From a virus: 31,360 nucleotides of DNA. The DNA is taken from positions 1 through 31,360 of the IMG/VR virus record IMGVR_UViG_3300008108_000238; one strand, 5' to 3'. The notes beneath the pieces were generated by a model. That model worked only from the letters and a program-made list of their open reading frames with translations. It was not told the origin of the DNA and ran no database searches. Every line of letters begins with the position of its first letter. The stretch's first letter is position 1. Both the position numbers and the translations under genes were made by a program. Positions 1,450 through 30,777 of this stretch are shown here, piece after piece.

Positions 1450-3030
1450 TCAAATCATTGAGTTAATCTTGGACATTATTTCCTCAACAATATCACCATT
1501 ATTTAGGTTATCACCCATAACCTGATTAATAATTTGTTTCTTATGTGATAAGATATCATAAATTGCCCCCTCCACTGTATTCTCAAAAATGGGATAATAA
1601 ACTAATACATTATTTTTTTGCCCATATCTGTAAGCCCTATCTTCGGCCTGAGCATGATCTGAAGGAACAAAAGAAAGATCATTCATAACAATTACCTCAC
1701 CAGCGGTGAGAGTAATACCAACACCTAAAATGTTCTCACAAAGTTCTATTGTTGATTCAACTTTCTCATTTGCGATTACTTGTCTAACTTTCATCAGTTT
1801 TGAAAATTGAATTGTTAGTGATGATGATTCATCTCTTTTATTTCGATACCAATCAAAGTATTCACCCATTAGTTCTTCATATTCTTTTGACTTAAGTTTT
1901 AGATAAACAGGTGTAATGATTTTTTCAGGAAGATCCAAAACATTTTCCTTTAAACGACGAAGTATTTGAAGTGAGGTTCTTTCTCTTAATTCATCTAAGT
2001 TTGTTGCACCATTTGTATTCCAAATCTTTTTGTTACCACCAACTCTGAATTGGTATCCCCCACAATATCGTATAACATATGCTTGCCAATTTAGTGACAC
2101 AGGACTATCTACCAATCTTAATAAATTGTAATAATCAATTGGTCTTGAAGTTATTGGTGTTCCAGTTAAAAGCCAAAGTCTATCAACATTCTTAACAAAA
2201 TCATTTACCAACTTTGTTCTGATCGCTTGAGAATTTTTAATATAATGACACTCATCCAAAATAACCAAATCAAAATTTGATTTTAAAAGAATAGATTCTT
2301 CTTTGTTTTTTGGATCGTGAAAGTTTTTTATAATGTCATAGTTAACAATCACAAAATCAGCATCTTCGTATTTTTTTCCCTCACAAATATAGATAGATCT
2401 ATCTGTGTAGTTTTGTATTTCTCTAAACCAATTAATTTTGAGTGATGCAGGACAAACGATTAATATCTTTTTTGATTTGGTTTCAATCGATGAGATAATG
2501 GTAGAAGTTGTTTTACCCAAACCCATATCATCGGCTAATATAAATTTTTTATTACTTGTTAATTTTTCAATAGCTTCCTTTTGATGAGATAAAGGAGGTC
2601 TATGTTCATACTTTATATAATCAATCTCAATAGGTTCGGTTCTATTACTTTTAATAATTGCGGATTTTGGAACCCACATATCTTGAATTGTATCTCCACT
2701 AAAAAACTTTCCCCATATGTGATACGATGTGTCTTTTTCAACTAAGATCTTTTCTACCCATAATTGTTTTGGTATTGACACTAACAATTTTTCGTCAGCA
2801 AACTTCTTAGAAAAATAGAAATCTAAATCAACCCATTTTTTGGCAACCTTTGGGTTTGTGGTATGGTAATTTAAAATGTAATCGGATTGAGCGCGAGTAG
2901 GATAGAACTTCTTATTTGTTTTTAAGTTGTTCTGTAGTTTTAAAAGATAGTTATTAGATCCTTCGTAATTGGATAAAATATCTAAAGCTTTTTGTTCTAT
3001 CGTTTTGATGGTATTTTCCACAATAATCAT
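1450..3030 (-). CDS. SNF2-family helicase-like ATPase with an incomplete second helicase domain
   Basis: This 526-residue protein resembles small SNF2 (SMARCAL1-type) DNA-dependent ATPases. Motifs seen: Walker A DDMGLGKT (residues 167-174), motif II DECH (259-262), motif III LTGTP (288-292), and motif VI QAEDRAYRYGQ (461-471). The family remodels or anneals DNA using ATP, and phage members are thought to act in replication or recombination. The second RecA-like domain is abnormal. After KLMKVRQVIANEKVESTIEL (411-430) the protein passes directly into GVGITLTAG (436-444, motif V), without the usual 70-85 residues that carry motif IV. The reading frame is open across the junction, so this looks like an in-frame deletion, and the protein may bind ATP without working as a full translocase. 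It is divergent from the gp14-like gene and 32 bases upstream of the neck-like gene, on the same strand. Confidence 0.85.
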   Translation of the reverse strand: MIIVENTIKTIEQKALDILSNYEGSNNYLLKLQNNLKTNKKFYPTRAQSDYILNYHTTNPKVAKKWVDLDFYFSKKFADEKLLVSIPKQLWVEKILVEKDTSYHIWGKFFSGDTIQDMWVPKSAIIKSNRTEPIEIDYIKYEHRPPLSHQKEAIEKLTSNKKFILADDMGLGKTTSTIISSIETKSKKILIVCPASLKINWFREIQNYTDRSIYICEGKKYEDADFVIVNYDIIKNFHDPKNKEESILLKSNFDLVILDECHYIKNSQAIRTKLVNDFVKNVDRLWLLTGTPITSRPIDYYNLLRLVDSPVSLNWQAYVIRYCGGYQFRVGGNKKIWNTNGATNLDELRERTSLQILRRLKENVLDLPEKIITPVYLKLKSKEYEELMGEYFDWYRNKRDESSSLTIQFSKLMKVRQVIANEKVESTIELCENILGVGITLTAGEVIVMNDLSFVPSDHAQAEDRAYRYGQKNNVLVYYPIFENTVEGAIYDILSHKKQIINQVMGDNLNNGDIVEEIMSKINSMI

Positions 3031-3060: not shown

Positions 3061-3573
3061 ATGAACAAAAAGGTTCCAATTACCAGATTAGGTAAGTTCT
3101 TTGATGGCCAAGATTATAATTTGGACATCGATATGGGTGAAGAGTGGTTACTTGGTGATATGAATTTCACTTTGGTTCTTTATAGAGTTGATAGACTAAG
3201 AACCAAGATCGATGATGTATATGGTGAGGTTTTACCCGATGGTGTAAAGTTTCACCCACCAATAGAATTTAAAGCTTATGTTTTGGTTAATGCCCCTGAA
3301 AACAGATATATCGGAACATCTCAAGTGGTTCAAACAGAACCAGGAAATATGAGATTTTCGGTATATACTAAACACCTTGATGAGTTAGGAATAGAAATTG
3401 GGTTAGGTGATTATATTGGATACTATGAAACAGAAGATACTGTTAGATATTATTCAGTAGTAAATGATGGTAGAATTGTTTCAGATAATAAACATACATA
3501 TGCAGGATTCAAACCTTTTTATAAAACATATATTGCAAGTCCTGTTAATAATAATGAATTCAAAGGAATATAA
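3061..3573 (+). CDS. Putative neck protein (gp14-like head-tail connector)
   Basis: This 170-residue protein starts at MNKKVPITRLGK. A longer open frame exists upstream, from 2992, but it would overlap the start of the SNF2-like gene on the other strand, so ATG 3061 is preferred. The second half (GDYIGYYETEDTVRYYSV followed by KPFYKTYIASP) resembles the part of T4 gp14 that reads GDLIYFPMDNSLFEINWV and then PFYQLG. This supports a neck protein joining the filled head to the tail. T4 gp14 is 256 residues, so this is a short version. Its stop overlaps the start of the next gene (TAATG), the tail terminator, which fits a head-tail joining operon. No membrane segment or cysteine cluster is seen. 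The family call is by eye. Confidence 0.55.
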   Translation: MNKKVPITRLGKFFDGQDYNLDIDMGEEWLLGDMNFTLVLYRVDRLRTKIDDVYGEVLPDGVKFHPPIEFKAYVLVNAPENRYIGTSQVVQTEPGNMRFSVYTKHLDELGIEIGLGDYIGYYETEDTVRYYSVVNDGRIVSDNKHTYAGFKPFYKTYIASPVNNNEFKGI

Positions 3574-4607
3574 TGATATTTGGTAAAAAAATAAAAAAGC
3601 ACATTCCTCTTGAACCTCAGAGTATTCTGTTGGAAAGAAGAAGACAACTTTTAGAAAAAATCAATCAAGATGGAACTTATTTACCCAAGTCGGTTTTACA
3701 CGCGGATTTGGATCGTGGATTTTTGGATTTTACAAAAGATCAACTCAAAACTACTGTCGCAGGTAAAACAATACCTATGATTGACATTTTGATTACAACA
3801 CAGAATTGGGCTCAGTTTACTGAAACTTGGAACATACACGACTTGGATGATAATGTGTCATTGCCATTTATTACTGTAATTCGTCAACCTGAAGTTAAAT
3901 TTGGAACCAATCCTGCTCTTATGTATAACATTCCAAATAGAAAACAATATTTTTATGCGTCGGTCCCAACTTGGGATGGTAATAGAAAAGGTATGGATGT
4001 ATATACAATACCCCAACCAGTTCCTGTTGATATCACATACCAAGTTAAGATTGTTTGTAATAGGATGAGAGAAATAAACGAGTTCAACAAAATTGTTTTG
4101 GAAAAATTTTCATCAAGACAATCTTATCAAATCATTAAAGGTCATTACATACCAATTGTTATGAATGATATAAGTGATGAATCTGTAAAGGAGGTAGAAA
4201 AAAGAAAGTATTATATACAGACATATTCTTTTACATTATTAGGATTTCTAATAGATGAAAATGAATTTGAGGTTAATCCTGCAGTTACTCGAGTTTTACA
4301 TATGGTAGAGACAAATAAGAAAATCAAAAAAAATATACCAACTAACAAAGAAATTAATAAAACAGAATTAGATGTAAAATTTTTGAATGGTAATACCTCA
4401 TTGAGTGATGTTTTTGATTATAGAGTAGATCTTAGTTTATTAGATTCCGTAAATGTGATCACCTATGATGTTTTTATAAATGGGGATTTTTTTGGTACAG
4501 ATGTGGACTTGATTCAGATAAATACAAATGATAATATTACTTTTAATATTACAAAGTTGAATGTTATGGAAGACTCCAACATTAGATTCAAAACAATAAT
4601 AGTTTAA
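3573..4607 (+). CDS. Tail terminator / tail completion protein (gp15-like)
   Basis: This 344-residue protein probably caps the tail tube and sheath at the head-proximal end. Residues about 150-232 (PVPVDITYQVKIVCNRMREI, then an aromatic linker, IPIVMNDISDES, and RKYYIQTYSFTLLGFLID) match the order and pattern of the T4 gp15 core: PSPIKMIYELSIFTRYEDDM, a linker, IVLMSAAIDEA, and RRIEWSLTFEVNGWMYPP. T4 gp15 is 272 residues. The extra length here is mostly a C-terminal tail (about 250-344) that looks like a small beta domain. The gene is translationally coupled to the gp14-like gene through a TAATG overlap. After it come an antisense mini-gene and then the sheath gene, as expected for a tail cluster. 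Confidence 0.7.
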   Translation: MIFGKKIKKHIPLEPQSILLERRRQLLEKINQDGTYLPKSVLHADLDRGFLDFTKDQLKTTVAGKTIPMIDILITTQNWAQFTETWNIHDLDDNVSLPFITVIRQPEVKFGTNPALMYNIPNRKQYFYASVPTWDGNRKGMDVYTIPQPVPVDITYQVKIVCNRMREINEFNKIVLEKFSSRQSYQIIKGHYIPIVMNDISDESVKEVEKRKYYIQTYSFTLLGFLIDENEFEVNPAVTRVLHMVETNKKIKKNIPTNKEINKTELDVKFLNGNTSLSDVFDYRVDLSLLDSVNVITYDVFINGDFFGTDVDLIQINTNDNITFNITKLNVMEDSNIRFKTIIV

Positions 4608-29983: not shown

Positions 29984-29996
29984 TATATTTATAACT

Positions 29997-30314
29997 ATGA
30001 AATATAAAATATCTAAAAATCAGATTGATAAAATTGCATTTCCATTTTTGGATAAGGAATTTGAAGGAATTGAAAAATATAAAGCAAAATATTTTGATGG
30101 AATTATTTTTAAAAAACCAAATGAAAAATTTGGTGTATTAAGATATGAAAAAAATAAAACTTTATGGATTTATTACAAATTTGTTAATAAAATTTCTTCA
30201 TTTTTTTCTCTTGAAAATCTTGATGCTCAGGGCCTTATCGGACGATGGGCTGAGGATAGATTGCAAATTGAGGTAAGCAGCACCTTAAGGCTGTACACCC
30301 ATTGGCATCTGTAA
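29997..30314 (+). CDS. Array-associated hypothetical protein, copy 1
   Basis: This 105-residue protein starts MKYKISKNQIDKIAFPFL. An upstream TTG would add 11 residues inside the SSB terminator and is not likely. The body is DKEFEGIEKYKAKYFDGIIF, KNKTLWIYYKFVNKISSFFS and LIGRWAEDRLQIEV. I believe similar small proteins (a short N-terminal helix, a central sheet with WIYY, an FFS.E segment, and W.EDR..eV near the end) occur in other Bacteroidota phages, but I cannot name a function. It has no signal peptide or membrane segment. Codons 85-96 (30249-30284) are the first repeat of a CRISPR-like array, and the last codons and the TAA come from the first spacer. The C-terminal nine residues (LRLYTHWHL) therefore look like a random addition. 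Confidence 0.8.
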   Translation: MKYKISKNQIDKIAFPFLDKEFEGIEKYKAKYFDGIIFKKPNEKFGVLRYEKNKTLWIYYKFVNKISSFFSLENLDAQGLIGRWAEDRLQIEVSSTLRLYTHWHL

Positions 30315-30335
30315 GCTGAGGATAGATTGCAAATT
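30249..30335 (+). repeat. CRISPR-like array A: one full repeat, a 30-nt spacer, one partial repeat
   Basis: A 36-nt repeat (30249-30284, beginning GCTGAGGATAGATTGCAAAT and ending AGCACC) is followed by 30 unrelated bases (30285-30314, 43% G+C) and a second copy truncated after 21 bases (30315-30335). The distance between the starts is 66. The first repeat lies within the coding sequence of copy 1, and its stop codon is the last three bases of the spacer. There is no cas gene nearby. See array B for the consensus. Confidence 0.8.
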
Positions 30336-30356
30336 AATTAACAGATATTAATAACT

Positions 30357-30680
30357 ATGAAATATAAAATATCAAAAGAACAACTTGATAAAATCATCTT
30401 TCCATTTTTGGATAAGGAATTTGAAGGAATTGAAAAATATAAAGCAAAATATTTTGATGGAATTGTTTTTAAAAAACCAGATGAAGAATTTGGAGCATTA
30501 GGATATAAAAAAAATAAAACTTTATGGATTTATTATAAATTTATTGATAAAATTTCTTCATTTTTTTCTCTTGAGGATCTTGATGCTCAGGAACTTATCG
30601 GACGATGGGCTGAGGATAGATTGCAAATTGAGGTAAGATACACCATAAGGCTTGGTAAGGGTATCCGTGCCGACAGCTGA
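30357..30680 (+). CDS. Array-associated hypothetical protein, copy 2
   Basis: This 107-residue paralogue of the gene at 29997 starts MKYKISKEQLDKIIFPFL and is about 90% alike in the body. Differences such as NEKFGVLRYEKN against DEEFGALGYKKN are mostly surface residues. Codons 85-96 (30609-30644) are the first repeat of array B. The following eleven residues (IRLGKGIRADS) come from a spacer, and the TGA stop (30678-30680) is formed inside the next repeat. A promoter is not clear. It lies 21 bases after the partial repeat of array A, so it may be read through from copy 1. Function is unknown. The coupling of this gene to a repeat array in both copies argues that the association is not accidental. 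Confidence 0.8.
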   Translation: MKYKISKEQLDKIIFPFLDKEFEGIEKYKAKYFDGIVFKKPDEEFGALGYKKNKTLWIYYKFIDKISSFFSLEDLDAQELIGRWAEDRLQIEVRYTIRLGKGIRADS

Positions 30681-30777
30681 GGATAGATTGCAAATTGAGG
30701 TAAGATACACCGCAATCTGTTTATTTGATGAGTTATGCTTCGCTGAGGATAGATTGCAAATTGAGGTAAACAAAACC
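30609..30777 (+). CRISPR. CRISPR-like array B: three 36-nt repeats with 31- and 30-nt spacers, no cas genes
   Basis: Repeats lie at 30609-30644, 30676-30711 and 30742-30777. The first two are identical over 36 bases (GCTGAGGATAGATTGCAAAT, then TGAGGTAAGATACACC). The last keeps the first 28 bases and ends in ACAAAACC, as terminal CRISPR repeats often do. The spacers, 30645-30675 (31 nt, 52% G+C) and 30712-30741 (30 nt, 33% G+C), do not resemble each other. A 36-nt repeat with a 30-nt spacer is usual for type II and type V CRISPR. However, the repeat is also the 3' end of the gene before it, no cas gene is in the window, and the repeat has no strong palindrome. A type label is therefore not justified. 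Confidence 0.55.

Follow-up and report, generated by a model that had tools for sequence, protein, structure and literature searches.

Several kinds of repeat-bearing element are known from viruses of prokaryotes. Viral CRISPR mini-arrays, found in phages and archaeal viruses, carry repeats identical to host CRISPR repeats, and most of their spacers match related viruses (reviewed in PMC11656645). RNA anti-CRISPRs (Racrs) are solitary, non-coding elements of phages with at least 90% identity to a known CRISPR repeat (PMC10651486), and TIGR arrays are phage-borne tandem arrays near a single gene, built from two alternating repeats of 8-12 nt with 9-nt spacers (PMC12045711). With regard to the source of new spacers, plasmid-free E. 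coli equipped with Cas1-Cas2 in a recording strain acquired spacers from its own genome only (PMC11788318), and integration by Cas1-Cas2 outside arrays has been reported (Nivala et al. 2018, as cited in PMC11788318). Here we describe an array of another kind, found in a phage contig of 31,360 nt (IMG/VR record IMGVR_UViG_3300008108_000238, positions 1 to 31,360; hereafter the window), whose repeat is the end of a phage protein-coding gene and whose relatives recur at the same position of homologous genes in many contigs of large phages from lake water.

The array occupies positions 30249-30777 (Table 1). Exact copies of the 21-nt core GCTGAGGATAGATTGCAAATT are found at five places in the 31-kb window and at no others, namely at the start of each repeat, and a 28-nt repeat core is present at four of these sites, being absent from the partial copy at 30315. 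Over their full 36 nt, the copy at 30609 and that at 30676 do not differ; the few mismatches of the copy at 30249 are confined to its last 8 nt, the same 8 nt in which the terminal copy at 30742 is degenerate. The spacers of 30, 31 and 30 nt are mutually unrelated except for TAAGGCT, which lies directly 3' of the repeat in the first two. These positions and lengths bear out the initial annotation, which had reported five repeat copies, 36 nt when complete and partial at 30315, separated by 30, 31 and 30 nt and ending in a copy degenerate at its 3' end. That annotation had further identified the first repeat of each window array with the 3' coding end of a gene present twice, as is the case: the duplicated segments 29985-30284 and 30345-30644 are 91% identical over 300 nt. 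A contig from a different sample, IMGVR_UViG_3300008266_008548 (L006), has one gene copy followed by repeat, spacer s2 and repeat, and this independent occurrence argues against an artefact of single-contig assembly. Rfam and tRNA scans were empty.

Table 1. Repeats, spacers and gene copies of the array locus, in window coordinates
Feature	Position	Strand	Description	Basis
Duplication	29985..30644	+	360-nt duplication of the gene together with its first repeat; segments 29985-30284 and 30345-30644	
Family gene, copy 1	29997..30314	+	MKYKISKNQIDKI...WAEDRLQIEVSSTLRLYTHWHL*; ATG at 29997, TAA ending at 30314	ORF listing, alignment; G008 homologues down to E 1e-15
Repeat 1	30249..30284	+	36 nt; encodes AEDRLQIEVSST of gene copy 1	
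Spacer s1	30285..30314	+	30 nt; antisense match to TDANGC motif of SprB-type adhesin repeats, Bacteroidia, up to 27/30	reversed control empty
Repeat 2	30315..30335	+	partial, 21 nt	
Family gene, copy 2	30357..30680	+	107 aa; ATG at 30357, stop TGA ending at 30680, within repeat 4	ORF listing, alignment
Repeat 3	30609..30644	+	36 nt; encodes AEDRLQIEVRYT of gene copy 2	
Spacer s2	30645..30675	+	31 nt; same sequence in independent contig L006; source search without result	
Repeat 4	30676..30711	+	36 nt; equal to repeat 3; out of the gene's frame	
Spacer s3	30712..30741	+	30 nt; sense match to Bacteroidia multicopper-oxidase gene	
Repeat 5	30742..30777	+	terminal copy; last 8 nt degenerate	

The gene whose end supplies the repeat was assigned to no family by Pfam or PHROGs. 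Its 94-residue domain has a confident predicted fold (pLDDT 94.8), for which nothing significant was found in the PDB, the matches being uncultured phage proteins only. A search of contigs sharing the neighbouring gp32-like gene led to distant homologues in a 156-kb contig, G008. At the end of one homologue stand nine copies of a 36-nt repeat quite unlike that of the window, encoding VEEVLNHKVSTT, with a period of 66 nt and variable stretches of 30 nt, and this array begins directly after a Trp codon equivalent to that in the window. Homologue searches from the G008 genes, together with whole-contig searches, gathered a family of 180 distinct genes in about 50 related phage contigs. Arrays of 2-10 repeats are present in about 48 of the 180 (a count that takes in L214, a doubtful two-copy case with an unrelated repeat), most genes having a single, array-free end; all of the arrays lie at one position, the repeat being the 36 nt that directly follow one Trp codon. 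These phages are rich in small genes whose products begin MKY[LI]ITESQ (e.g. L108:668-1306 and 3622-4375), which form clusters of up to 15 family members per contig, mostly array-free. With respect to neighbouring genes, the gp32-like gene of L006 (1207-1917) has an in-frame deletion of about 42 residues relative to the window and L007, and the gene preceding it (L006:485-1054) one of 29 residues relative to the same two contigs; these internal deletions of L006 are either real variants or assembly effects. Elsewhere in the window (1450-3030, minus strand), an SNF2-type helicase lacks about 63 residues of its relatives near residue 437, with the break in frame.

Two classes of array were distinguished. 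Class-1 arrays are long, have repeats encoding VEEVLNHKVSTT and are read through in frame in 25 of 25 cases. Class-2 arrays, with repeats encoding VENTLQMKVTNT or the AEDRLQIEVRYT of the window, mostly comprise one spacer and a shortened last repeat, and, the window included, only their first repeat and spacer are translated, with one or two exceptions. The 9 nt preceding the first class-1 repeat, TCTTCTTGG, are strongly conserved, third codon positions included, and could be a leader-like boundary of these arrays. The last class-2 repeats often retain only GTTGAGAATACC, followed by TAACTAATATTTA (as in the L127 array starting at 3247, and at similar ends); such shortened repeats suggest that the gene formerly ended in WVENT-stop. 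In the L108:8543-9337 array and its orthologues, one unit (the fifth in L108) is 72 nt long, its repeat being extended in frame by 6 nt, and this unit has been inherited across several phages.

Comparison of orthologous arrays in genes of 95-100% identity revealed that whole units are gained and lost, and that the order of the spacers common to two arrays is conserved in all 20 pairs. L119 and L178, for example, share an identical 240-nt gene segment, and their spacers read 0 1 2 3 4 5 6 7 8 and 16 9 2 3 4 7 14 8, respectively. The annotation had proposed to test whether spacers vary in related phages while the repeats stay, and this is what the family shows. Within arrays, repeat identity to the first repeat drops with distance from the gene (rho -0.54, p 7e-10, a p value that is optimistic in that arrays are related by descent), and the identity of neighbouring repeats, from the gene end onward, is 33.0, 32.7, 30.8 and 27.8 of 35. 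Pairwise comparisons showed the first unit to be shared in 11 of 58 cases and the last in 20 of 58, a trend only (position test, p 0.29). Because repeat identity decays away from the gene, it is likely that new units are inserted next to the gene, in the manner in which CRISPR arrays grow.

To what DNA do the spacers correspond? A search of 92 spacers against 395 Bacteroidia genomes, with a per-genome cut-off of E 0.01, returned matches in 42 genomes and in none of the 395 when the same spacers were reversed. Single-genome matches are at noise level and were left out of the counts, and only a few candidate places per genome were scored, so that misses mean little. The matches are concentrated in a few spacers, each at one gene stretch in many genomes, and the loci opened for a given spacer lay in the same gene each time: secA (6 genomes, up to 28/30), glmS (about 13 genomes, 28/30) and, for two of the three window spacers, the TDANGC motif of SprB-like adhesins (s1, antisense, about 17 genomes, up to 27/30) and a multicopper oxidase (s3, four genomes, 27/30 in two and 26/30 in two). 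A match to rsmH is weaker, at 26/30 in the one genome opened. At least four spacers match bacterial genes, which establishes, at the level of sequence similarity, that some spacers are of bacterial origin; among the four, the source of s1 is the least certain, given how common the adhesin motif is in such bacteria. A convincing source was found for only about 5 of the 137 distinct spacers collected. The genomes searched may not be those of the true hosts, so that only highly conserved genes are recognizable as sources. A further 45 spacers, and a renewed search with 33, yielded no more matches than the E-value cut-off lets through by chance. The initial annotation had proposed searching the spacers against host and phage sequences; as against the Bacteroidia genes matched, matches in 2.1 Mb of related phage DNA were no better than those of shuffled controls, and 48 spacers had no match in 50,697 phage records. 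No protospacer-adjacent motif was evident at the matched sites. Both strands are represented, the secA and rsmH pieces standing in frame and the glmS and oxidase pieces out of frame. The signal for in-frame sense pieces in a codon-model test was modest (its height was reached by 5/200 and 0/200 controls), and we do not take it as proof. An origin of the spacers in ribosome footprints was considered and rejected: the four sense matches share a codon phase relative to the spacer, but among class-2 spacers stop codons are not depleted in this phase.

These sources bear on whether the gene end was simply duplicated in tandem and the copies then diverged, or whether the arrays are assembly artefacts. 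Gene families with repeated ends are common, and L006 and the window carry other internal deletions, which would suit such an origin. Against it, the repeats are alike while the spacers are not diverged copies of one ancestral sequence, being unrelated to one another and in some cases matching bacterial genes, and the same arrays were assembled from separate metagenomes (e.g. L119/L120/L121 and L150/L151). We consider this origin very improbable.

Spacer length follows translation. In class 1, 93 of 95 translated spacers are exactly 30 nt long, and an in-frame stop occurs in 1 of 93 (about 44 are expected by shuffling), while frame-free spacers measure 29, 30 and 31 nt in 6, 10 and 11 cases. 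Of the 95 class-1 spacers, 88 have G as their final base irrespective of the amino acid encoded, and the true class-1 repeat therefore begins one base earlier. The G+C fraction of the spacers is 0.42-0.43, compared with 0.31-0.32 in the phages. In translated arrays, dN/dS is 0.25 for spacers and 0.27 for repeats, the domain having 0.19. The tail of VEEVLNHKVSTT repeats, each followed by ten variable residues, might accordingly serve the phage as a set of peptides borrowed in part from host proteins, a proposal to which the invariable reading frame of class 1, these dN/dS values and the in-frame secA and rsmH pieces lend support. It fails, however, for class 2, the window included, where translation nearly always goes no further than the first repeat and spacer; the frame is not kept in the pieces of glmS and the oxidase gene, the near-constant final G is independent of the amino acid, and the translated array part has no confident predicted fold (pLDDT < 50, residues 87-264). 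A protein function of the arrays is thus improbable.

The same values weigh upon a second view, in which machinery of the host or the phage inserts host fragments at a favourable gene end and the functionless units are tolerated as long as the gene stays intact. The decay of older repeats agrees with such a by-product, as does the restriction of long translated arrays to stop-free, frame-keeping units, which filtering alone predicts. Yet arrays recur in many lineages, at several loci per phage, and a dN/dS of about 0.25 in translated arrays implies that something is kept. On this evidence, tolerance of functionless units is an unlikely explanation.

The arrays have a geometry of the CRISPR kind, with repeats of constant length (36 nt) and unrelated spacers of near-constant length (29-31 nt). 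A search for Cas1 found none in 35 array-bearing or related contigs, the positive controls being detected; among the Bacteroidia genomes sampled, 87 of 247 have Cas1. The phage repeats were compared with 29 CRISPR repeats, 26 from Cas1-carrying Bacteroidia genomes and 3 of type VI-B, and showed no similarity above chance to this sample, which may not include the repeats of the true host. Type II-C repeats beside the sampled Bacteroidia Cas1 genes are mostly 45-47 nt, as opposed to 36 nt in the phages. In reverse complement, the window repeat resembled Cas13b repeats, and an all-species pattern scan returned real Prevotella arrays; mimicry of type VI-B repeats was rejected, there being no hairpin in the phage repeat and similarity only at chance level. 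The interpretation in the initial annotation holds in part. Its CRISPR-like reading is supported far outside the window: many contigs have 36-nt repeats with spacers of about 30 nt at this position of the gene, spacers are replaced while repeats persist, and the related contigs yielded no Cas1. The parallels then offered, phage mini-arrays and solitary repeat units, are poor ones, since the repeats are unlike the 29 CRISPR repeats, the spacers with a match point to bacterial genes, and throughout the family the repeat forms part of the translated gene.

If the arrays were to act through RNA, their transcripts would be cut into guide RNAs of about 66 nt, which would direct a nuclease of host or phage, or base pairing, to host genes and so shut down the host. 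Spacers matching essential bacterial genes such as secA and glmS fit this, the arrays' location at the end of a phage gene makes transcription probable, and a precedent exists in huge phages with cas-poor arrays targeting host genes (PMC7162821). On the other hand, no effector was identified, a stable fold is absent from the window repeat, repeats diverge along the array, which would not be expected of a processed guide array, matches fall on both strands, and the sampled CRISPR repeats are no more similar than chance. We consider a guide function unlikely.

We tentatively favour, at something short of an even chance, a reading in which the window array is one member of a widespread array type of large T4-like phages, to which pieces of host DNA are added gene-proximally by an adaptation enzyme acting in trans, with a decoy benefit; the phages themselves probably infect Bacteroidota. 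Growth would take place next to the gene, with the first 36 nt duplicated and a fragment of 30 (29-31) nt set between the copies, one unit each time, some and probably most fragments being taken from the chromosome of the bacterial host. This unit geometry is that of spacer integration by Cas1-Cas2, and we know of no other process that duplicates 36 bp around a 30-bp insert at a fixed boundary. Since Cas1 was not found in the phages, the most likely enzyme would be the CRISPR adaptation complex of the host, or else an unrecognized integrase, supplied in trans and accepting the gene end as a leader-repeat junction. As to benefit, the most likely would be that of a decoy, whereby spacers acquired during infection enter the phage array and not the host's; the decay of older units makes this the simplest benefit. 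Recurrence at one codon position, spacer lengths, conserved spacer order, decay of repeats, bacterial matches, the raised G+C of the spacers and the presence of Cas1 in Bacteroidia speak for this reading; against it stand the dissimilarity to the 29 CRISPR repeats, the greater length of most type II-C repeats sampled, the mere trend in pairwise unit sharing, the small share of spacers with a convincing source and the failure to see a protospacer-adjacent motif. That the phages keep a heritable, growing record of host genes, by which they soak up the formation of host immune memory or turn guide RNAs on the host, strikes us as evenly balanced between true and false.

If this were true, growing repeat-spacer arrays would not be only a tool of bacteria against phages, for phages would accumulate host pieces too, and would store them in protein-coding DNA, which at least one array survey masks. 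Diversion of host adaptation enzymes by a phage gene, and the origin of a new array at a non-CRISPR site, would become testable, and past hosts would be readable from a phage genome. The arrays are easily located with the motif reported here. Should host Cas1-Cas2 be the builder, a more cautious view would treat the system as a variant of CRISPR adaptation.

No description of a system of this kind was found in the open-licence literature, and the closest relatives differ as follows. Viral mini-arrays (PMC11656645) are alike in being short and cas-less, in their unit geometry and in a possible dependence on host enzymes; here, however, the repeat is the phage's own gene end, the matched spacers correspond to bacterial genes, and there are up to 10 repeats and several arrays per phage. 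The arrays of huge phages (PMC7162821) share large phage carriers, a paucity of cas genes and some host-gene spacers, but are CRISPR loci, often with effector genes, and in the passages that treat them no arrays at coding-gene ends are described. Off-array integration by Cas1-Cas2 likewise places units at non-CRISPR sites with the host chromosome as source; as summarized in PMC11788318, it was seen on Cas1-Cas2 overexpression, whereas the present units are natural, phage-borne, recurrent and retained at one gene family. Racrs resemble our arrays as phage-borne repeat-like elements, and a single-unit family member could pass for one, but up to 10 repeats here lie in or overlap a gene; the Racr survey masked confident ORFs (PMC10651486) and would therefore miss such arrays. 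TIGR arrays, although also tandem, phage-borne and near a single gene, contrast with the one 36-nt repeat and 30-nt spacers seen here. With regard to the template of a diversity-generating retroelement, no near copies of the spacers were found in the fetched phage DNA, all of G008 included. Racrs, TIGR arrays and diversity-generating retroelements thus each fail on a defining feature, and viral mini-arrays fail on the targets of their spacers.
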